From: a virus
Direction: 5' to 3' (one strand)
Length of the DNA: 21,198 nt
IMG/VR virus record: IMGVR_UViG_3300004092_000011
Location: 1-21,198 of that record
Positions within the stretch are counted from its first letter, which is position 1. Each line of letters opens with the position of its first letter. Below the pieces are notes generated by a model. That model had not been told where the DNA came from, did not search any database, and saw only the letters and a list, made by a program, of their open reading frames with translations. Positions 1 to 21,084 of the stretch are shown here, one piece after another. The position numbers and the translations under genes were made by a program.

Positions 1-542
1 GTTCCAACTGATGTCCCTCCGTTTGCTGCTGCACCTACACTATAAGATAATCCACCAGTAAATACAGAAGCTGGCCCTTCATAAAATGTAAATGTACCTC
101 CATTTCCTCCGCCTCCTCCTCCCGACGTACTAGTAGCCCCACACCTTCCAGATCCTCCGCCACCACCTCCACCCCATAGATACGCTTGAACCCAAACAGT
201 TAAAGGGTTAATAGTCCAAGTTCCAGACCCAGAAAGATAGGTTGTATTGATTGTGTTAGCAGCAGGAGCTTGCGAAATAAAGTTGGTTCCGTTTGATGTC
301 ACTACATTGCCAGATGTCCCAGCAGTTGACGGATAAGTGGCCGTAGAGTAAGCAGGATTGGCTGAATTTCCTCCAGATTGCAAAACTTGTCCAGCCGATC
401 CAGTAACTAAAGAATTTATTTGATTATTAGAACTTCCAACTAATACACAATATTGAGTAGTTGGACTGCCTAAAAAAGTTCCCGATCCTGAAGCCGTTAT
501 AACGCCTGTGACATGTATATTTAACGCATTATTATAAACCAT
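1..542 (-). CDS. Tail fibre-like protein A, glycine-rich head (3' end outside window)
   Basis: The gene reads from ATG at 542 off the left edge, so its C-terminus is missing. The start is preceded by AAAGGG seven bases upstream, a good ribosome site. Residues 1-65 carry the module shared with the next five genes: an N-terminal VTGVxTxxGxGTF stretch, TQYCVLVGSSNN, and GSAGQVLQSGG. After a WTINPLTVW segment comes a strongly Gly-rich region (WGGGGGGSG, then SGGGGGNGG), followed by FTFYEG. Gly-rich heads of this kind are known from distal adhesins and fibres of tailed phages, where the polyglycine segments pack against each other and present receptor-binding loops. Role inferred: receptor-binding fibre or fibre tip. 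It is the most distal of six tandem paralogues on this strand. Sure of the coding frame and family resemblance, less sure of the exact structural role. Confidence 0.8.
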   Translation of the reverse strand, partial: MVYNNALNIHVTGVITASGSGTFLGSPTTQYCVLVGSSNNQINSLVTGSAGQVLQSGGNSANPAYSTATYPSTAGTSGNVVTSNGTNFISQAPAANTINTTYLSGSGTWTINPLTVWVQAYLWGGGGGGGSGRCGATSTSGGGGGGNGGTFTFYEGPASVFTGGLSYSVGAAANGGTSVG

Positions 543-554
543 TGATCAACCCTT

Positions 555-1328
555 TCATCCTATAAGATAGCCGAAAATTAAAGATTGTGTTGTAACGGAA
601 ATAACTTTAGATCCCCCACTGACTTGTAAACTAAATTGAAGTGTAGCATCTCCCGAAGGAGTTTTCGGGTATAAAAATGTTTTATTGAAGTTTCCAGAAG
701 TTGCATTATACGAGTTGAAAGGGTTTAATCTCAAAAGCTGATTAGTTGAAGCAGGTCTTACTAAGTTTAATATTAAAGAGGTATGTGATGAGGTTATCCC
801 TGTTATTGAAATGATACCTCCAAAATAATACCTAGCGTTTCCGCCAGTTCCAGACGGATAGGTAAAAGTAGAAGTACCGTCAAAATTATTTGCTTGATCA
901 AAAACTTTATTTGAGAATATTAGCGTGTACACAGTTCCGTCACCTGTTACGTTTGATTGTGTACTAGCAGTATATTGAAATGCAGCTTGGGTAACATTAT
1001 TTACGCATCCGCTGTCTGTTGCTGTAAGATTACTATTTTTTACAAATATTCCTCCAGTTCCAGCAGAAACAATAATTGCGTTATTTGTAGATATTCCACC
1101 CTGATCGATTATAAAACCCCCAGGCACACTCTGATACGTCGGGTCAAAACCTGCACCATTTGACACCAAGACTTGACCCGCCGTGCCTACCGCAGTACTG
1201 GCTATCTGATTACTAGCACCACCTAACAAAACTCTGTATTGAGTTAAAGAAGAACCCGAAAATGTTCCGTTTCCGTTTGAAGTCAAAACCCCTGTGACAT
1301 TTATATTTGAAGAATTATTATATGCCAT
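555..1328 (-). CDS. Tail fibre-like protein B with C1q-like head
   Basis: This 257-residue protein has two parts. Residues 1-70 are the shared module: MAYNNSSNINVTGV, GTFSGSSLTQYRVLLGG, GTAGQVLVSNGAG. From about residue 128 comes a C1q/TNF-type jelly-roll-like head, with GDGTVYT, NNFDGTSTFT, an aromatic-rich strand YYFGGIISI, and a late GDATLQFSLQVSGGSK strand. In phage proteins this head forms trimeric knobs at fibre tips; that is family knowledge, not seen here. The TAPVTG segment typical of the head is altered here to TYPSGTGG, unlike genes C and D. The ribosome site is weak (GGT) and the upstream gene stops only three bases before the start, so translation is probably coupled. Function inferred: receptor-binding protein. 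Confidence 0.8.
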   Translation of the reverse strand: MAYNNSSNINVTGVLTSNGNGTFSGSSLTQYRVLLGGASNQIASTAVGTAGQVLVSNGAGFDPTYQSVPGGFIIDQGGISTNNAIIVSAGTGGIFVKNSNLTATDSGCVNNVTQAAFQYTASTQSNVTGDGTVYTLIFSNKVFDQANNFDGTSTFTYPSGTGGNARYYFGGIISITGITSSHTSLILNLVRPASTNQLLRLNPFNSYNATSGNFNKTFLYPKTPSGDATLQFSLQVSGGSKVISVTTQSLIFGYLIG

Positions 1329-1331
1329 ATT

Positions 1332-2084
1332 TTACCAACATAAAAAACCGCTAAACTTAGAAGTGTTAACAATATTTATAACTTTTGTCACCGATGCAAT
1401 TGTCACAGTGAAGCTTGCTGTGTCCGAAGCGTTCATATATACCAATATACCCGATGTTATCGTTGTTGCTCCAGACACGGAATAATTATAAGGATTGAAC
1501 TGCTCCATGAAATATGTTGCTGAAGTGGTTACAAGATTTAATATACCTTGAGTATGGGTGGATAAAATCCCACTTAACGATAGGGTGATAGATAAAAAAT
1601 AAGATCCTGCCACTGGAGCGGTAAAGGTAGAGGTTCCATCATAATTACTATTTCTATCGAAGGTGACCGATGAGAAATCGATTGTATAATCCGTTCCGTC
1701 ACCTGTTACCAAACTTTGTGCAGCTGCCAACGCTGAAAAACAAGATGCACCTGAATTTGTCATATTTCCAGTTGATCCAACTATCAAAAGACTATCTTTA
1801 GCTAAATTTCCAGACGTTCCGCTATATCTCATCAATGCGTTTGTAGTAGAAGATACAGGCCCAGCTATAAAAGTGGAATAAACATCGGTATATGAGGGAT
1901 TAACTCCAGCTCCACCAGACGTAAGAAAATTGGTAGCATTTCCGACCGCTGTACTCAACATATTATTGTTACTTGATCCAATAAGTACGCCGTATTGAGT
2001 CAATGCAGATCCTGAGTATGTCCCAGTTCCCGAAGCTGTTACTACACCTGTAACATTTATATTTGATGAATTATTATATGCCAT
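1332..2084 (-). CDS. Tail fibre-like protein C with C1q-like head
   Basis: This 250-residue paralogue begins with the same eleven residues as protein B (MAYNNSSNINV) and has GSALTQYGVLIGSSNN at about 27-42. The GQVL element is degraded to NATNFLTSGGAG. The C-terminal half is a C1q-like jelly roll: GDGTDYT, SNYDGTSTFTAPVAGSYF, SGILSTHTQGILNLV, ASDTASFTVTIAS, and a final FSGFLCW. Its first 80 bases are close to those of B, and a 34-base block is identical to gene D, so the genes arose by duplication or exchange segments. There is no clear ribosome site. Likely a receptor-binding fibre or fibre tip. Confidence 0.8.
   Translation of the reverse strand: MAYNNSSNINVTGVVTASGTGTYSGSALTQYGVLIGSSNNNMLSTAVGNATNFLTSGGAGVNPSYTDVYSTFIAGPVSSTTNALMRYSGTSGNLAKDSLLIVGSTGNMTNSGASCFSALAAAQSLVTGDGTDYTIDFSSVTFDRNSNYDGTSTFTAPVAGSYFLSITLSLSGILSTHTQGILNLVTTSATYFMEQFNPYNYSVSGATTITSGILVYMNASDTASFTVTIASVTKVINIVNTSKFSGFLCW
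2023..2056 (-). repeat. 34-bp direct repeat, copy in fibre gene C (partner 2782-2815)
   Basis: This 34-base segment is identical at 2023-2056 (gene C) and 2782-2815 (gene D). Each copy ends 28 bases downstream of its gene's start codon. It encodes the VTGVVTASGTGTY stretch of the shared N-terminal module. The flanking sequence has already diverged, so the identity is conspicuous. It is large enough to support homologous exchange between fibre genes, particularly by an annealing recombinase such as the RecT-like protein encoded in this window. Confidence 0.85.
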
Positions 2085-2090
2085 ATGTAC

Positions 2091-2843
2091 TCAACAAATT
2101 AATTCCGCTGAAAATTGTGATCCTGCAATTACGCCAATGCTTTTAGTACTTCCGCTAACTTGATAGGTACAGGTTGCAGTATCTCCTGAAGTCATATTAG
2201 CCAATACAGAGTAAGAACTTGTGTATTGAGAAGCAAATAATTCGCCTGGGTTTACTTGTAAAAATGGGTATGTAGTTGATGAGGTGACCAATTTAAATAT
2301 TCCAGAAGTGAAAGAACTAGATAATCCAGAAAGAGAAACTAAAAAAACAAAATTATATATCCCTGTTACAGGGGCCGTAAATGTAGAAGTTCCATCAAAA
2401 TTACTTCCTATATTTAGTCCTGATTGTGTAAAAGTTGGCGTGTATACCGTTCCGTCACCAGTCTTTGAATTCTGAACAGTAGCAGCAGGATTAAAAAAAC
2501 ATTGTGAAGGCAAAGTTACAAATTTAGTAGTATCAGAATATTGCACAACGCTAGTCGCTGCTAATAGTCCAGTCGTATTTGCGTACTGAAATGCCCTGTT
2601 ATTTATTGTGGTTCCTGGGCCTACTATATAACTTCCTGAAACAGTCTGGTACGACGGAGGCATGCCCGATCCGTTTGAGGTCAGTACTTGATTGGCCGTT
2701 CCTACCGCAACGCCAACAATTGTATTATTAGCCCCTCCAATCAAGGTATAGTGCTGAGTTAATGCAGAACCTAAATAAGTTCCAGTTCCCGAAGCTGTTA
2801 CTACACCTGTAACATGTATGCCATCCGCATTTTGAAACGCCAT
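2091..2843 (-). CDS. Tail fibre-like protein D with C1q-like head
   Basis: This 250-residue protein has the shared module (GIHVTGVVTASGTGTY, SALTQHYTLIGG, GTANQVLTSNGSG) followed by the clearest C1q-like head of the set: GDGTVYTPTF, SNFDGTSTFTAPVTGIYNF, SGLSSSFTSGIFKL, and GDTATCTYQVSGSTKSIGV. The head ends at the C-terminus, as expected for a fibre-tip knob. An AAGAGA ribosome site lies close to the ATG. The gap upstream of this gene (2844-2926) holds a 33-bp tandem repeat, so D may begin a separate transcript or be a junction in the cassette. Role inferred: receptor binding; no ligand can be named. Confidence 0.8.
   Translation of the reverse strand: MAFQNADGIHVTGVVTASGTGTYLGSALTQHYTLIGGANNTIVGVAVGTANQVLTSNGSGMPPSYQTVSGSYIVGPGTTINNRAFQYANTTGLLAATSVVQYSDTTKFVTLPSQCFFNPAATVQNSKTGDGTVYTPTFTQSGLNIGSNFDGTSTFTAPVTGIYNFVFLVSLSGLSSSFTSGIFKLVTSSTTYPFLQVNPGELFASQYTSSYSVLANMTSGDTATCTYQVSGSTKSIGVIAGSQFSAELIC
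2782..2815 (-). repeat. 34-bp direct repeat, copy in fibre gene D (partner 2023-2056)
   Basis: Second copy of the identical 34-base block, at the same offset from the start codon as in gene C. See the partner entry for interpretation. Confidence 0.85.
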
Positions 2844-2851
2844 TAAATCTC

Positions 2852-2917
2852 TTAAAATCTAGTGTAGTTAGTCACTCCCTACATTTAAAATCTAGTATAG
2901 GGATTCACTCCCTACAT
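2852..2917. repeat. Two adjacent 33-bp tandem repeat units between fibre genes
   Basis: Unit 1 is 2852-2884 and unit 2 is 2885-2917, directly adjacent with no spacer. They match at 29 of 33 positions; the differences cluster in the centre (positions 13-20 of the unit). Both begin TTAAAATCTAGT and end TCACTCCCTACAT on the plus strand. Unit 2 contains a short hairpin, TAGGGA (2898-2903) with TCCCTA (2909-2914). The array fills most of the gap upstream of fibre gene D. It could be a regulatory element, a transcript punctuation signal or a recombination junction; the sequence does not decide. Confidence 0.8.
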
Positions 2918-2926
2918 AACAATGCA

Positions 2927-3628
2927 TTAAGTGATCGACAAGTTTCCGACTGATGCTAACACTGTAAACGTTGTGTTAGCTACTGTGCAAACAAATTTGA
3001 CGCTATCAAATGCATTTGAGGAAGCTAGTGCCGTTGTTCCTTGAGATGAACCAAAGTTCATAGTCTGTGAGTTTGTAGCTAAGTTAATTGTCCATCCAGA
3101 GGCAGAGTTTCCAGCAACCGCGAAAACAGTTCCAACCGCACAAGTAGAAGGGGGTGTAAATGTAATCAAGCTAGATGCATCATTCACAACGTAACCAGTA
3201 TTGACAGCCATTGCTTGAGTTGCACCAGTCACATTGACATAAGGAATCTGAGCGGTCAAAGTTTGCATAGACGGTAACGCGCCAGCTCCGTTTGAAGTAA
3301 GAACTTGACCACTCGTACCTAAACCGATTTGTTGTAGTGTTCCTGTGCTTGTCGTTCCTGCTGCTAATAATTCATAAGCTGTAAGAGTTGCTAAACCTGT
3401 TCCTCCTCCTGCTACGACTGCCGTACCAAATGCAGGATTAGCACTTGAACCAGCAGATATCAAAGGAACCCCAGCAGTAGCAGAAGGGGCGACATTAGAA
3501 AGAGTGTCGCTAGAGCTTCCACCAATCAATACATAGTATTGCGTTACTGCTGTGCCTGTAAATACTCCAGATCCGTTATAACCTGTGATCCCAGCAGTCG
3601 ATAAATTGATTGCATTATTCGTAACCAT
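2927..3628 (-). CDS. Tail fibre-like protein E with two shared modules
   Basis: This 233-residue protein has a strong ribosome site (AAGGGG, seven bases before ATG). It carries two copies of the shared module. The first is a variant with VTQYYVLIGGSSS and SATAGVPLISAGSSANPAFG (about 28-68). The second, after a VAGGGTG hinge, reads TAYELLAAGTTSTG and GTSGQVLTSNGAG (about 82-116). The C-terminal domain differs from B-D: PYVNVTGATQAM, VVNDASSLITFTPPS, AVGTVFAVAGNSASGWTI, then AFDSVKFVC and a final SVGNLS. I read it as a beta-rich head of the same type as protein F. Function inferred: fibre or receptor-binding protein, possibly proximal in the fibre cassette. Confidence 0.75.
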   Translation of the reverse strand: MVTNNAINLSTAGITGYNGSGVFTGTAVTQYYVLIGGSSSDTLSNVAPSATAGVPLISAGSSANPAFGTAVVAGGGTGLATLTAYELLAAGTTSTGTLQQIGLGTSGQVLTSNGAGALPSMQTLTAQIPYVNVTGATQAMAVNTGYVVNDASSLITFTPPSTCAVGTVFAVAGNSASGWTINLATNSQTMNFGSSQGTTALASSNAFDSVKFVCTVANTTFTVLASVGNLSIT

Positions 3629-5502: not shown

Positions 5503-6465
5503 TTATCGCATTGCTTTGACCGACTCAAACAATCCAGCTAAATTATTAAAAAAAGATATGGGATTCATGTTTAGCATGATCTCTTTTCCTTGAAAAGATG
5601 TATCTTCTACGTGTCTGTCCCCTATTTTTAGAGTTCCCCATTTCATTTCTCTTGAGAATGATCTAGCCGTTTCCGTGTTGGTGTTGCAGTTCTGCCCTCG
5701 TGCGTTGTGTTCATTTTTAAGCAAATGTTTAAAATAAGCAATTTTACAGTCAGGGACAAAGCCTTGTTGATTTATTTTAAACTGCATGTGTGAATAAGTA
5801 TCTTTGAGTTTCTCGATTGTATGCGAATGGCTAAGAAAGCTCATTTCGTCCTCGCTAACGCAGTTTTTGCTGTCGGTGAGGTTTAGACTCATCAAGTAGT
5901 TAAAACGCTCTTGGTGGTCAGCTTTGCGCTTGTGCTTGCGAGTTATAGAAGGTATCACGGTGGCATTTCCATCGCCTATCTCTCTTGACAAAGAGGCATT
6001 GCCTTCCAGTGCCTGTAAATTAGGCATTGGTTTCTTAGGCATTGGTAGTGGCTGGTTTACCGGCGACGATTTCACCGGCGACGGTTTTTCCGTTTGCGGT
6101 GAAATTATTTTAATTTTTGGTTTTGTAACATTCGAATCCTCAGTCACTTCTGTAAATATAGGCGTATGATGATAGGTGAAATTGTAGTGCGAAAACCTTC
6201 CTTTTACCCTAACCTGCTCTCTTCTTACGTATCCAAGTTTGATCACATGTGCGATGGTCTTTTGCATCTTTTCTTTGCCCCATCCTAAAATATGTCTTGT
6301 ATATCCTAAGTAAACCGTCCAATCCCCTGAGTTTGAGAAAAGGTAAGTTAAAATACGAAAATCAGCATCGGTTAGATTTTTATCAACGATTAGACGATTT
6401 GGGATCGTCGTGTATTGCTCGTCGTATGGTGGTTGATATTTTTTAAATATAGACTTATCATTCAT
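5503..6465 (-). CDS. Winged-helix replication protein (O-like/HTH_36 type)
   Basis: The protein has 320 residues, with AAGGA eight bases before ATG. Residues about 20-100 form a helix-turn-helix/winged-helix domain: TIPNRLIVDKNLTDADFRIL, LGYTRHILGWGKEKMQKTI, LGYVRREQVRVKGRFSHYNF. This is the standard architecture of phage and plasmid replication initiator-like proteins (HTH_36 group). Residues about 110-165 are a Pro/Lys-rich linker (PSPVKSSPVNQPLPMPKKP). The C-terminal half (about 175-320) is charged and not recognised; by analogy with lambda O it could contact a helicase or loader. No helicase or primase lies in the window. The nearby non-coding region with short tandem repeats (6533-6610) is a candidate target. 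Confidence 0.7.
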   Translation of the reverse strand: MNDKSIFKKYQPPYDEQYTTIPNRLIVDKNLTDADFRILTYLFSNSGDWTVYLGYTRHILGWGKEKMQKTIAHVIKLGYVRREQVRVKGRFSHYNFTYHHTPIFTEVTEDSNVTKPKIKIISPQTEKPSPVKSSPVNQPLPMPKKPMPNLQALEGNASLSREIGDGNATVIPSITRKHKRKADHQERFNYLMSLNLTDSKNCVSEDEMSFLSHSHTIEKLKDTYSHMQFKINQQGFVPDCKIAYFKHLLKNEHNARGQNCNTNTETARSFSREMKWGTLKIGDRHVEDTSFQGKEIMLNMNPISFFNNLAGLFESVKAMR

Positions 6466-9267: not shown

Positions 9268-9828
9268 ATGTTACAAGAAAATAATATCCCCTCTGGATAT
9301 CTGCGAGTCACTGAGGTATTACAACCGTTTTCCACCCTAGGAAACATTGACCCTAACACTTTAGCAAACGCAGCAGATCGAGGCACTCGGGTACATGCTT
9401 ATTGCGAAAGCTATGCACTTGGCCTATTTGTATTTGATATCGATCTTGATTGCAATAATTATTTTTCTGTTTATAAAGACTGGTTTGACTCTATGGTTAA
9501 AGAAGTTATTCACACAGAAACAAGATGCAACTCAAAAAAGTACCGTCTATCTGGAGCCTTTGACATGATAGCCATTTTGAAAGGCGACAGCAAACCCTCT
9601 TTAATCGACATAAAGACCCCCGCTTTAGGTTCCCTATCTTGGCAACTACAAACGGCAGCCTATAGAATGCTAGCCAGAGAAGAAATGGGAATAGAGTGCA
9701 GTAGGAGAATTTGCCTAATGCTACCTAAGCAAAAGCAAGCCGTCAAAATCATGGAATATGAAAATCATGATAGAGATGAGCAACTTTACATAAATGCTTT
9801 GGAGCTTTACAGATTTTTCAATTCTTAG
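9268..9828 (+). CDS. PD-(D/E)XK exonuclease of the RecB/Cas4-like phage recombination type
   Basis: This 186-residue protein has AAAAGG six bases before ATG. The nuclease core is visible: RGTRVHAYCE with H43, E84 in HTETRC, GAFD with D99, SLIDIKTP giving D114-x-K116, and the helix WQLQTAAYRML with Q126 and Q128, as in lambda-exonuclease-like and Cas4/RecB nucleases. In phage recombination systems such enzymes resect double-stranded ends and hand the single strand to an annealing protein; the RecT-like gene downstream is the expected partner. It acts in the cytoplasm on linear DNA. No iron-sulfur cysteine cluster is seen, which argues against a true Cas4. Confidence 0.8.
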   Translation: MLQENNIPSGYLRVTEVLQPFSTLGNIDPNTLANAADRGTRVHAYCESYALGLFVFDIDLDCNNYFSVYKDWFDSMVKEVIHTETRCNSKKYRLSGAFDMIAILKGDSKPSLIDIKTPALGSLSWQLQTAAYRMLAREEMGIECSRRICLMLPKQKQAVKIMEYENHDRDEQLYINALELYRFFNS

Positions 9829-9876
9829 ATGATTTCAGAAAGTTTTGATCTTTTTCTTTTCGTAAAAGATTGAATA

Positions 9877-9885
9877 TGTTACTAT
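9877..9885 (+). promoter_or_regulatory. Extended -10 promoter candidate
   Basis: TG-T-TACTAT (9877-9885) matches the extended -10 form and lies about 48 bases upstream of the 50-residue gene. No convincing -35 box is seen. It could give the distal recombination genes their own transcript. Confidence 0.3.
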
Positions 9886-9932
9886 TTAAACATAACCGCA
9901 CAGAGCGAGATTAGGTAAAAAAGGGGTTATTT

Positions 9933-10085
9933 ATGGAAATAATAGACTTGGAAACAACAGAATTCACTGACGACGACTATGATACAAATTTACGTCAATA
10001 TTTTTATGACGCAAGTTTGTGCCAAGATTACAGGTGTAGAAAGTGCAGAGATTACGGATGTAATTATTGCCTACTATTCTATTAG
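9933..10085 (+). CDS. Cys-rich 50-residue mini-protein (possible zinc finger)
   Basis: This short frame starts at ATG 9933 with AAGGGG six bases upstream, a very good site. The N-terminal half is acidic (EIIDLETTEFTDDDYD). The C-terminal half has five cysteines in a regular pattern: C30-x4-C35-x2-C38-x4-C43-x2-C46 (CRKCRDYGCNYC). The spacing suits metal binding. It fills the gap between the exonuclease and the Gp157-like gene and reads in the same direction, so it probably belongs to the recombination operon. A DNA- or protein-binding adaptor is possible. No family recognised; frame and ribosome site support a real gene. Confidence 0.6.
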   Translation: MEIIDLETTEFTDDDYDTNLRQYFYDASLCQDYRCRKCRDYGCNYCLLFY

Positions 10086-10110
10086 AAATAAATTAAAACA
10101 ATGAGGTATT

Positions 10111-10701
10111 ATGGACAATGAAGTTGGTTTCTTAAATCAAGAAATCCAAAAGAGTCAAGAATTTTTATTCATTGACTTGGAACAAATAGACAATCAATTA
10201 TATAAAGAAATTGATTTAAGCGGAATGCAAGAGTCAGCTGTTTTAGCTAAAATAGCTACCGAAGAGGATGCAAAAAATGTTTTGTTAATGATTTTGCAAT
10301 CTAGAAGAATGGAGTCAGTTGTTGAGGATAATCGCATCCACATAACTAAACCACATTTTGAATACCAAAGACTGGTAAACAATACAACTAAAAAATTGAA
10401 AAACAAAATTCAAGAAATTGAAGACTACTTAACCGAGAAGATTTCAAAATGGATTTGCGAGCAAAAGCAAAATCCTTTCACTGCTATAGAAGAGCTACAT
10501 ACCGATGAAGGCTCTTTATATACTAAAAAAAACTGGGATTTTGAGATTCTGGACGGTCGAGTGATAGAAGAAAAATACAAAACCATTGACATGGAAAAAA
10601 TTGAGAAGGACATCAAAAACGGAGTCCGACAGATAGACGGAGTCAGAATCTTTCAAAAAGAAAAAATAACTATAAGATCAAAAGCAAGGAGTAATGAATG
10701 A
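10111..10701 (+). CDS. Gp157/DUF1351-like protein of RecT operons
   Basis: The protein has 196 residues, with GAGG four bases before ATG. The central part (about 85-120) is a charged coiled-coil-like helix (RLVNNTTKKLKNKIQEIEDY). The C-terminal third shows a pattern I associate with proteins next to phage RecT genes: KTIDMEKIEKDIKNG followed by GVRIFQKEKITIR, compared with the IPGVRIYEEK-type ending of that group. Members have been linked to phage recombination or resistance, but the biochemical role is unknown. The stop overlaps the RecT-like start by four bases (ATGA), indicating coupled synthesis. The assignment rests on the C-terminal pattern and context, so it is moderate. Confidence 0.6.
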   Translation: MDNEVGFLNQEIQKSQEFLFIDLEQIDNQLYKEIDLSGMQESAVLAKIATEEDAKNVLLMILQSRRMESVVEDNRIHITKPHFEYQRLVNNTTKKLKNKIQEIEDYLTEKISKWICEQKQNPFTAIEELHTDEGSLYTKKNWDFEILDGRVIEEKYKTIDMEKIEKDIKNGVRQIDGVRIFQKEKITIRSKARSNE

Positions 10702-11627
10702 GCAATTTTAATCGACCAAACCCACAAACTAGAATTGTAAAAAACAATTTTTGGTTTTCTATGCCATGCGGACAAGAATTACAACAACTAATTGAATTTT
10801 GTAAGATAATGGCTACCGCGCCTTTTTACAGCAAGCTTCAAGCTGGTGGAGTACTGGCAATTTATCTAACAGCACAAGAGCACAATGTACCTTTTATGTC
10901 TTCTCTGAATGGAGGCATGTATACCTATGACGGAAAAGTTACATTCTCTGCCCAATTAATCAATGCCATGATATTAAATGCAGGGCATAGAGTAGATATC
11001 ATCTATTTAAGTGAAGTGCGTTGTCATCTCAGATTCATTCGTTGTGACAGAGGAAGAGGTGAAAATAATACCATGGATTACGAGTATACAATCGAACAAG
11101 CTCAAAAGGCAGGATATCTAAAAAAAACAAGCTGGCAAACAAGCCCAAAGGATATGCTTTTTAGTCGTTGTCTTACAGGAGGAGGACGCAAGTTTATTCC
11201 TGAAATATTTATTGGCGTACTGGTAACAGGCGAGCTTGTTGGTGATGATTCAGATGGTGAAATATTACCTATGATGCCACTGCAAGATTCGAATCAAAAT
11301 CTTTTGGATTTTAAAAATGATCAACAAGATGCTCCAGAAAATAACAATAAACAAGAGGATTCTTTAGAAAATAGCAACAAGGTAAAAGTACATATTCCTG
11401 ATGAAGGTTACATTGAATTTTGTAATAAACACAATATATTCAAAAATGAAGATGGAACATCAACAATAAAAATGCAGTACGTTCTTGAGACATGCAATAA
11501 AATGAATATGGAAGAAGTTCAAGTAATCAATTTCGCAATAAAATATGAGAGTATTTTTGAAGAAAGATTTGAAGTTTGGTTTAATAAAAATAATCCTAAA
11601 GACTTCGGTGTACAAGAAAATCTTTAG
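10698..11627 (+). CDS. RecT-like single-strand annealing protein
   Basis: This 309-residue protein starts at ATG 10698 after AAGGAG. The core (about 30-180) follows the RecT plan: LAIYLTAQEHNVPFMSSLNG, GKVTFSAQLINAMILNAGHR, RCHLRFIRCDRG, YTIEQAQKAGYLKKTSW, then SPKDMLFSRCLTGGGRKFIP and EIFIGVLVTGEL. The SRCLTGGGRKFIPEI segment corresponds to the conserved region read in relatives as AR(A/C)LSRxxRxxxPD. Residues about 195-235 are an Asn/Gln/Asp-rich linker, and the C-terminal 75 residues (HIPDEGYIEF and following) are a separate helical domain. It would anneal single strands produced by the exonuclease at 9268-9828. Last gene of the plus-strand operon. Confidence 0.75.
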   Translation: MSNFNRPNPQTRIVKNNFWFSMPCGQELQQLIEFCKIMATAPFYSKLQAGGVLAIYLTAQEHNVPFMSSLNGGMYTYDGKVTFSAQLINAMILNAGHRVDIIYLSEVRCHLRFIRCDRGRGENNTMDYEYTIEQAQKAGYLKKTSWQTSPKDMLFSRCLTGGGRKFIPEIFIGVLVTGELVGDDSDGEILPMMPLQDSNQNLLDFKNDQQDAPENNNKQEDSLENSNKVKVHIPDEGYIEFCNKHNIFKNEDGTSTIKMQYVLETCNKMNMEEVQVINFAIKYESIFEERFEVWFNKNNPKDFGVQENL

Positions 11628-18285: not shown

Positions 18286-18965
18286 TAAAGGACTCCTGCA
18301 ATTGCTGCTAGATTAACTAAAACATTTGGCAATATTGCTCTAGGAACAGTTAGAAGGCTTTGAACTCCTACATTTGTCGCAGTCGTTGCTTGATCTTTAA
18401 GGCTGAAAGGAGGGTCATTTTGTAATATTGGGATGTTGGTATTTTCTGCGACTATATTTCTTGGTGTGTTGTCCATTACTCCACCGAAAACATTATTCTG
18501 ACTCGCGTAATTTTGAATCTCGTCATCGTATACAATCTTTTGAAGTTCAATATTAAAAGTTAGAGTTTGACCAGTTTTCACAGTTCTAGGAACGTCAAGA
18601 GACGTGATCGCCATATTTCTATAAACTTTGATTCCTGTAACAATGTCAACAATTTGGCGCCTTTCGTAAATCTGAACCAGTGTATTAAAGGCAGCCACCG
18701 ACCTATTGAATGTAGCAAAAATATTTAGCGGTGTATCGGTAATCAATCCAGATAAAATAACAATTTCAGGCTGCTTGAATATGTGATCACTTATTATTGT
18801 GCCCCTTTCGATAGGGTAGTAGGTAACTCTTGCACTGTATTTGTGTTCCTCTGAAACCATGGTATCGAAGGTAATTAAGTTAGACCCAATATTAGCACCT
18901 TGTACAGCCATATTTATTTGGCTCTGAGCATATTTTGCATTTTTGTATAGAAGACTTAAAGCCAT
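18285..18965 (-). CDS. Dit-like tail/baseplate adaptor protein
   Basis: This 226-residue protein has NLITFDTMVSEEHKYSARVT, YYPIERGTIISDHIFKQPEI and VILSGLITDTPLNIFATFNR, the conserved line of Dit-like N-terminal domains in myophages (SEEHxY, then PVExGxxxSDH). The central VYRNMAITSLDVPRTVKTGQ and TLTFNIELQKIVYDDEI complete the domain. The last 60 residues are variable and end in a hydrophobic ILPNVLVNLAAIAGVL. The gene follows the tape measure, whose stop it overlaps as TAATG. It connects tube and hub. Confidence 0.8.
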   Translation of the reverse strand: MALSLLYKNAKYAQSQINMAVQGANIGSNLITFDTMVSEEHKYSARVTYYPIERGTIISDHIFKQPEIVILSGLITDTPLNIFATFNRSVAAFNTLVQIYERRQIVDIVTGIKVYRNMAITSLDVPRTVKTGQTLTFNIELQKIVYDDEIQNYASQNNVFGGVMDNTPRNIVAENTNIPILQNDPPFSLKDQATTATNVGVQSLLTVPRAILPNVLVNLAAIAGVL

Positions 18966-20050
18966 TATTCGACCGTTGGATTATTGTTGATTACTTCCCT
19001 TATTTTTTCGTCAAAAATTTGATTAAAGACATCCCTAAATTGATCTCCTAAAAAAGTAGCCTGTTGCTGGCTTGTTCCTTCTGGGATATTAAATTCGAAT
19101 CGGTTGTTAGTTGTAATATCTAAATTTCTGTTATTGATTTTTGATACTTCTTGATCTCTAACACGGTTAAAAAACTCTTGATTGTCTTTTGAATATTCTT
19201 TCTTAATAAGTTGAAGTTGACCTTCACCAAAAAGAGTGGCAACATGATCATAAAGTCCTCTGAATAGAAACTTTACCCCATCCAATAGTCCTTCTTCCGT
19301 TGCTATCTCATTAAATACGTTTGCACCACCTACGCTTTTTGTTAATGCTGGAATTGCGAAACTGGACACCTTATTAGAAAATTTAGTCCATTCTGTTTCT
19401 AATTGATTTATTTCTTTCTTAAACTCTCTAGCAGCATCCACATTTTTATATAGAGTTTGTTCCGAAATTCTCTCTTTTTCAATTAATTTTTGAAACTCAT
19501 CTTCTGTTAATTTAAATAATTGTTGAATAGATTCAGCAGTTTTTAAGTCAGATTGGAAAATATTTTGTATAATTCTTAGCTGTTCAGATTCATTTTCAAA
19601 TTTTTTTACATGTTTTATTATGTCCGATAAAGCTTGTTTAATCGTGACAACTTCACCATTTACGCGAAGTCTCACGGTTCCATATGATTGTTGAACTAAT
19701 TTATAAAATTCATTTGAAACCCCTCTTGATGCCTCACCTATCTGTATAGAAAGATTCTCAAGAAAAGGGGTTAAAAACTCAGGTTCTACGTCAAACTTTT
19801 GAAAAGCATTTTGAAGAGCTGTTAAATCCGTTAATGAGGTTTTTGTAAACTTGGCAATTGCATTATTTTTTAAAATATTATCTGAAAATTCTTTTGAATA
19901 TTTGACGATTTTTCCAAAAGTGCTTTCTATTGCTAAACGCCCAATATCAAATTTCGTTTTAAAGTTTGATATTGCTTTTTCAAATTTGTCAAGATTGGTT
20001 CTATCGAAAGCGAAACTTAGGCGTGTGACTAACTCTCTAGCAACATTCAT
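18965..20050 (-). CDS. Short tail tape-measure protein
   Basis: This 361-residue protein starts at ATG 20050, overlapping the stop of the chaperone -1 extension (ATGA). It is largely helical: LSFAFDRTNLDKFEKAISNF, RIIQNIFQSDLKTAESIQQL, EDEFQKLIEKERISEQTLYK, REFKKEINQLETEWTKFSNK. Residues about 150-225 look like a coiled coil. The mid-region LTKSVGGANVFNEIATEEG is a break. Position after the chaperone gene and before Dit is diagnostic for tape measures. It is very short for the class; by the usual rule of about 1.5 angstrom per residue the tail would be near 54 nm. No lytic domain is seen. Confidence 0.75.
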   Translation of the reverse strand: MNVARELVTRLSFAFDRTNLDKFEKAISNFKTKFDIGRLAIESTFGKIVKYSKEFSDNILKNNAIAKFTKTSLTDLTALQNAFQKFDVEPEFLTPFLENLSIQIGEASRGVSNEFYKLVQQSYGTVRLRVNGEVVTIKQALSDIIKHVKKFENESEQLRIIQNIFQSDLKTAESIQQLFKLTEDEFQKLIEKERISEQTLYKNVDAAREFKKEINQLETEWTKFSNKVSSFAIPALTKSVGGANVFNEIATEEGLLDGVKFLFRGLYDHVATLFGEGQLQLIKKEYSKDNQEFFNRVRDQEVSKINNRNLDITTNNRFEFNIPEGTSQQQATFLGDQFRDVFNQIFDEKIREVINNNPTVE

Positions 20051-20615
20051 TTTTTAGCCCTTCTCCTTGCGTCTTCTTGAATATCTGCTCTCATATCTAA
20101 AATAGCGTTAGCCCTGTATACGTCGTCAAGATTCCATATACGTTCTAATTCTTCAAGAGAGGCCATTTTTTCCATAACCAACCGCCAAACTGGAAACTCT
20201 TCTTTTATTTCGATTTGAAGGTTTTCTTCGTAACTTCGGCTTGTATTGTCTCCTCCGAAAATGAGGGGAGTCCAATACCGATCAGGGAAAAAAAATTCGC
20301 ATAATTTACCTCGATCACAAATAGGAGCATTTTATAAACGCCTGCCATGTCTCCAGCGAATTCAAGATCAAAAGTAGCAGGAACCAACTCAACCCCATTT
20401 TTTCGAACTCCTTGAATCATTTCCATACAAATAGATTCAAATTGATTTTCATCAAGTGATTGACACAATGCTTGAAAATTGGAGGACTCCTTACCAAAAA
20501 TCATGACTCCAAATAGCTTAATCAGTTTAGCTTTTAGTCTTAAGGCTCTTCTAGCTGGTAATTGAGTCACTGAGTAAACCGCTCCATCAATCACTTTTTC
20601 TTTCGTTTCTATCAT
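20047..20615 (-). CDS. Tail assembly chaperone, -1 frameshift fusion product (G-T type)
   Basis: Frame 0 is read from 20615 to the slippery run, then -1 to a stop at 20049-20047: join of 20615..20289 and 20289..20047, giving 189 residues (109 + 80). The shift would occur on T-TTT-TTT (20295-20289) in codons AAT TTT TTT TCC. The -1 frame is open from there to the stop and reads like protein: FPDRYWTPLIFGGDN, then EEFPVWRLVMEKMASLEELE and IWNLDDVYRANAILDMRAD. The W..V..K.ASLEELE..W.LDD pattern is typical of T-type extensions of phage tail chaperones. Lambda G/GT use the same mechanism. The stop overlaps the tape-measure start (ATGA). An internal ATG at 20175 could alternatively give a separate short protein. 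Confidence 0.75.
20205..20615 (-). CDS. Tail assembly chaperone, frame-0 product (G type)
   Basis: This 136-residue protein is the unshifted product. Its start MIETKEKVIDGAVYSVTQLP and ARRALRLKAKLIKLFG fit tail assembly chaperones placed between tube and tape-measure genes. Central parts are NFQALCQSLDENQFESICM and FDLEFAGDMAGVYKMLLFVI. The C-terminus after the slippery site (SLIGIGLPSFSEETIQAEVT) is the alternative end. The ribosome site is weak (GCAAG). Chaperones of this type coat the tape measure during tail assembly, and the ratio of short to fused forms is set by frameshifting. Confidence 0.8.
   Translation of the reverse strand: MIETKEKVIDGAVYSVTQLPARRALRLKAKLIKLFGVMIFGKESSNFQALCQSLDENQFESICMEMIQGVRKNGVELVPATFDLEFAGDMAGVYKMLLFVIEVNYANFFSLIGIGLPSFSEETIQAEVTKKTFKSK
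20288..20296 (-). promoter_or_regulatory. Programmed -1 frameshift slippery site (T8 run)
   Basis: On the minus strand GCG AAT TTT TTT TCC contains eight T (20295-20288). The heptamer T-TTT-TTT (20295-20289) allows both tRNAs to re-pair in -1. The -1 frame has a stop about 40 bases upstream of the site and then none until 20049-20047, as expected if the shift occurs here. Confidence 0.7.
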
Positions 20616-20652: not shown

Positions 20653-21084
20653 TTAAGATTCGCTGTTTGATCCAACAAACATATCTGCTTCATCCATCAT
20701 TAGACTCCATTGACGATCTGATATATCTTTTCCGAAAGTAGAATTGGCGTATTGAGTTACCCAGCAACGGCCAGCGAAATATATAGAATTACCGCTAATA
20801 TCTTTCACTAAAATAGGAAAAACGCCCGAGTTTGTAGCTTCATCAATAGCCATAAAACCAGATAAAATATCGTTGGAAGGGCTAGATTGTTTAAGAGTCA
20901 GTGTTAGAGTTCCTGTAAAGTTATTAGTCTTTCCACGAGTGACAAGGCCATCGGCTCCGACTACCGTGTTCCATGTAGGTTCATTTCGGTCAATTTCAAG
21001 AAATGTACCATCTGAAAATCCACTCATTGGAATTCCACCAATAGTAATTATCACTTGCTTAGGGTCATATGTTCGAACACCCAT
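20653..21084 (-). CDS. Tail tube protein, DUF3277 family
   Basis: The protein has 143 residues, with TAGGAG before ATG at 21084. It shows the DUF3277 line: GGIPMSGFSDGTFLEIDRNE, then WNTVVGADGLVTRGKTNNFT, GTLTLTLKQSSPSNDILSGF and FPILVKDISGNS, with SDRQWSLMMDEADMFVG at the end. This family forms the inner tube of myophages that carry the DUF3383 sheath. Highly expressed virion protein; placed between sheath and chaperone as expected. Confidence 0.85.
   Translation of the reverse strand: MGVRTYDPKQVIITIGGIPMSGFSDGTFLEIDRNEPTWNTVVGADGLVTRGKTNNFTGTLTLTLKQSSPSNDILSGFMAIDEATNSGVFPILVKDISGNSIYFAGRCWVTQYANSTFGKDISDRQWSLMMDEADMFVGSNSES

Follow-up and report, generated by a model that had tools for sequence, protein, structure and literature searches.

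The window, a 21,198-base virus record, is a fragment of a contractile-tailed phage. We propose with high confidence, on the strength of its sequence, that its tail-assembly chaperone gene would yield two proteins from one start, a 136-aa chaperone and a minor 189-aa chaperone, the latter by stimulated -1 frameshifting on T_TTT_TTT. Very probably some ribosomes slip back one base on the T run and thus give the longer chaperone. This reading recovers the second half, lost in plain annotation, of a chaperone gene from a group of mostly uncultivated phages; in practice, the two ORFs (G and T) should be annotated as joined. The features concerned are as follows.

20653..21084, minus strand: tail tube-position gene, KPP10_Orf10-like, upstream of the chaperone (PF11681, E 2.5e-7; PHROG 280, E 1e-40)
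20205..20615, minus strand: chaperone short form (G / TAC-N), 136 aa (PF21822 and PHROG 1613 matches)
20308..20312, minus strand: SD-like GAGGT, 12 nt before the heptamer, a probable 5' frameshift stimulator (GAG codon conservation)
20295-20288, minus strand: T8 run (read base by base; T_TTT_TTN phase conserved in relatives)
20295-20289, minus strand: slippery heptamer T_TTT_TTT, codons 108-109 of G
20047..20289, minus strand: -1 frame extension (T part), 80 codons plus stop TGA (dN/dS 0.12 in relatives)
20273..20281, minus strand: hairpin 5' arm TCGGTATTG, 7 nt past the heptamer (covariation in relatives)
20236..20248, minus strand: hairpin 3' arm (CAATA...GCCGA, with a 4-nt bulge in the window phage; pair probabilities 0.62-0.96)
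18965..20050, minus strand: tape-measure-like protein, 361 aa (PHROG 8125 tail length tape measure, E 8.8e-8)

Base-by-base reading bore out what the first-pass annotation had described at this site. The T8 run indeed lies in the codons AAT TTT TTT TCC, preceded in the 0-frame by GCG, and the heptamer forms an X_XXY_YYZ site that is in phase and close to the 3' end of G, as in G/GT-type chaperones. From the slip site the -1 frame is open for 80 codons, reads FPDRYWTPL...RRRAKK and stops at a TGA (20049-20047) that overlaps the tape-measure ATG (20050-20048) as ATGA, all as claimed. Upstream it is blocked by a TAA, which had been placed about 40 bases before the site and which starts at 20334, 39 nt 5' of the heptamer. 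Recomputation of the long form (G-T) gave the predicted length of 189 aa (109 + 80), the 109 aa being common to both forms, while unshifted G reads on for 27 codons past the slip site to reach 136 aa. The T part had also been said to escape a plain ORF scan, and it is absent from the start-to-stop ORF listing of the window.

In a profile search the G part matched PF21822 Phage_TAC_15 (E 3.4e-17; 63.6 bits against a cut-off of 22), the family found in Pakpunavirus, Felix O1-like and phiEt88-like phages, and PHROG 1613 tail assembly chaperone (E 5.5e-17). The earlier label of a lambda-type chaperone therefore stands for the proposed mode of action but not for the sequence family. Among solved structures, the G profile had no match. 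The Pfam match of the T part (DUF1007, E 0.13) is at chance level, and its matches to PHROG 4364 and 4625 are weak (E 0.002-0.004); these small families of unknown function are possibly T parts annotated as stand-alone ORFs. The chaperone gene sits at the canonical tail-assembly chaperone position, between tail tube and tape measure, in an order shared with phiEt88 and Moogle. Downstream of it lie the tape-measure-like protein, Dit-like and Pam3 plug-like proteins and baseplate genes, and this order and the families resemble those of phiEt88. Elsewhere in the window, five successive minus-strand ORFs at 3-3628 with similar N-terminal residues (MAYNNSSNINVTGVVTASGTGTYSGSALTQY...) are apparently tandem paralogues and perhaps receptor-binding or fibre proteins; one of the five was compared with PHROG and gave no match. 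A replication-initiation-like protein is encoded at 5503-6465 (minus strand), and a divergent early block at 9268-11627 (plus strand) encodes exonuclease-like and RecT-like annealing proteins.

A comparison with related phages had been put forward as a check on the frameshift, and its outcome favours it: the heptamer is kept and the -1 frame is open and under strong purifying selection. The slip run occurs in the same phase in all eight close relatives, and the -1 frame is open and similar in all seven whose sequence reaches far enough. Wider profile scans with both parts, G and T, added loci L013-L105, which brought the set to about 100 IMG/VR and genome loci overall; after removal of duplicates, 56 sequences were left, which group into 44 clusters at 85% identity. 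Wherever a locus has both parts, the T part lies in the -1 frame. At the same place, all loci but two carry a heptamer T_TTT_TTT or its TTC, TTG or TTA version, the exceptions to T_TTT_TTN being L099 (G_GGT_TTT) and L100. Because the run, its phase and the -1 frame recur in all relatives examined, with these two differing in the heptamer only, the slip site is not a chance occurrence. In the stretch past the G stop, the T frame of close relatives has a dN/dS of 0.12, compared with 0.82 and 1.5 for the two control frames, and T-frame stops were found in none of 43 clusters versus 42 and 43 clusters for the other two frames. The -1 frame is thus under protein-level selection, as expected of a translated -1 frame. 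Together with the canonical gene position, these relatives support the earlier reading of a programmed -1 frameshift, from which a fusion protein is predicted.

Upstream of the slip site, the sequence Glu-Val-Asn is common in relatives at six codons' distance. GAG encodes this Glu in all 37 of 37 clusters, versus 160 of 458 (35%) Glu codons elsewhere in G (Fisher P 2e-16, a value that overstates independence since the clusters are related, so that the true figure is weaker), and two further conserved Glu columns use both codons (20:15 and 21:11 GAA:GAG). The energy of pairing with the anti-SD was -6.8 kcal/mol versus -3.1 kcal/mol in synonymous shuffles, and 8-mers reached the energy minimum only if they ended 9-13 nt upstream of the heptamer. 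The GAG motif is missing in 7 of the 44 clusters. Beyond the window's own group, Moogle, PHB05 and VPs20 carry GGAGGCA/GAGGTG/GAGGTC at the same place as the window's SD-like motif. Upstream of a TTTTTTC site, and equally spaced from it, we also observed GAGGTC, GAGGTG or GGAGGCA in L010 (Chaseviridae), L110 (Justusliebigvirus) and L108 (Moogle); the T part is unannotated in the Chaseviridae records. Since other PF21822 phages share the SD-like motif, the 5' stimulator may predate the window's group.

Downstream of the slip site, relatives carry a hairpin that starts ~7 nt after the heptamer, with (N)CGGTATTGG in the 5' arm and, for example, CCAATACCG as its partner. A phage's own hairpin arms pair better than arms swapped among phages (0 of 5000 permutations), 77% of cells are paired in 18 aligned loci versus 21-44% in slid versions, and the covariation score was reached in 0 of 500 shuffles, with U-A/G-C and C-G/G-C as two-sided changes. 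RNAalifold yielded an identical 10-bp stem when the GAG and non-GAG groups were run separately, a stem that appears only with four rows dropped (those with no stem or with another spacing), and it yielded no consensus structure on all 18 aligned sequences. The stem of the window phage is interrupted by the 4-nt bulge and weaker than in many relatives, and its arm pairing taken alone was not significant (P 0.25). A clear stem was not seen in L006 and some distant loci. Taken together, the 44 diverged versions form an unusually clear natural data set in which a slip site, an SD-like motif and a hairpin would jointly set a -1 frameshift.

From the site, its phase and conservation, the selection on the -1 frame, the GAG constraint and the hairpin covariation, all read in the sequence itself, we infer a ribosomal shift and putative roles of the products in the following way. 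Ordinary reading would give the short 136-aa chaperone, and programmed -1 ribosomal frameshifting would give the minor long 189-aa form when the tRNAs on TTT TTT slip one base back on T_TTT_TTT. The SD-like GAGGT may pair with the anti-SD while the ribosome occupies the heptamer, and the hairpin ~7 nt downstream may resist unwinding, each probably raising slippage in the manner of E. coli dnaX. If lambda gpG/gpGT is a guide, the part common to both forms would coat the tape-measure protein and the T part would recruit tail-tube subunits.

An almost identical product would be expected if RNA polymerase instead added or dropped a base in T8, so that mixed mRNAs yielded both proteins, and the T8 runs in the window and in 11 of the 44 clusters are in principle long enough for such transcriptional slippage. 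However, run length is 6 in 16 clusters and 7 in another 17, and the T6 runs (T_TTT_TTC/G/A) still keep the phase-specific heptamer in every case; the conserved SD-like element and downstream hairpin, moreover, work on ribosomes. We consider transcriptional slippage improbable and favour ribosomal slippage because the 16 T6 clusters are always in heptamer phase. Even less credible, in our judgement, is a separate small T gene with its own start and no fusion. Annotations of related phages routinely show a separate hypothetical ORF at this place (PMC12846349), and in the window the first half of the T part has a single ATG, which is in frame and would leave 42 aa. Yet this ATG is missing from many relatives, the T residues before it (RYW, YEKNL, WRL) are conserved, and no start codon (ATG, GTG or TTG) that retains 80% of T was found in the window or in most relatives. 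The idea that the T run is a sequencing error, or a frameshift that disabled a once-fused gene, has nothing in its favour but the broken frame itself, and its likelihood is close to nil: isolated phages and dozens of independent contigs show the same break, phase and heptamer, and the 0-frame continues for 9-39 codons past the site in relatives. The conservation of the -1 frame refutes it.

Of 234 genomes from the phylum to which the Parachlamydiales and Rhabdochlamydiaceae MAGs belong, 4 also contained the chaperone; two of these 4 were compared for gene order. Most of the 30 window ORFs have homologues, largely syntenic, in contigs G003:C12 and G108:C3 of genomes of this phylum; in G108:C3 the phage genes have ABC-transporter-like and serine-hydrolase-like ORFs close by. 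The loci of this Chlamydiota-linked observation are L103-L105 and L114-L117. Environmental Chlamydiota may thus host tailed phages or prophages of this kind, the alternative being misbinned contigs. In the clade with Chlamydiota-genome members (L029, L031, L071, L073 and their kin), GAY TGY replaces GAG GTN, so that there is no SD-like motif, and the downstream hairpin is a perfect 10-bp stem. It is conceivable, and we offer it as speculation that may well be wrong, that a dnaX-like signal with three parts, traded among lineages, governs the PF21822 chaperone frameshift, the Chlamydiota-linked clade having lost the SD-like arm, having the perfect 10-bp hairpin instead, and having had its chaperone ratio retuned in those hosts.

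Among known systems, the slip site of lambda gpG/gpGT is G_GGA_AAG, unlike that of the window, and the frameshift site of P2 E/E' is of the T_TTT_TTG type, which also occurs in relatives L004, L027 and L054, although P2 E/E' is another chaperone. Frameshifting (-1) of tail chaperones is well established for lambda and many other phages, and lambda gpG/gpGT resembles the proposed arrangement in its place before the tape measure and in making a minor long chaperone by a -1 shift at low level (PMC5009743). The likeness to E. coli dnaX lies in the upstream SD-like element, the -1 heptamer and the downstream hairpin (PMC3711429, PMC5009743). SD-type stimulators of -1 frameshifting, which occur in dnaX and, by one estimate, in 56% of insertion elements, are placed at 9-14 nt spacing (PMC5009743); the window's GAGGT, at 12 nt, falls within this range, and a hairpin a few nucleotides downstream is found across the group, the window's own stem being bulged and weaker. 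The gene is unrelated to dnaX, however, and its T_TTT_TTN differs from the A-rich dnaX site.

The closest counterparts are other PF21822 phages. The chaperones of C11, PAK_P5, Moogle, PHB05, Amme-3, VPs20 and phiEt88 belong to PF21822 with an open -1 frame (E 1.7e-23 for C11 and 7.5e-20 for Moogle), and the Moogle record annotates its chaperone as a joined CDS. A TAC-N/TAC-NC -1 frameshift has been proposed for Pakpunavirus Adele, other Vandenendeviridae and Andersonviridae, and Felix O1-like phages, with GTTTTT as the reported motif (PMC12846349). The window shares with these phages the PF21822 family, the gene order, a -1 frame open to the tape measure and a T-rich site, but its group uses T_TTT_TTN in place of GTTTTT. 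Neither an SD-like motif nor a hairpin is mentioned in the TAC-N/TAC-NC section of PMC12846349, and the passages of the open literature that were searched held no mention of an SD-like element plus covarying hairpin for tail chaperones. Provisionally, then, a dnaX-like stimulator set on a tail chaperone would be a new detail, whereas the frameshift itself is of a known kind already proposed for PF21822 chaperones, of which the window is a well-supported further case.
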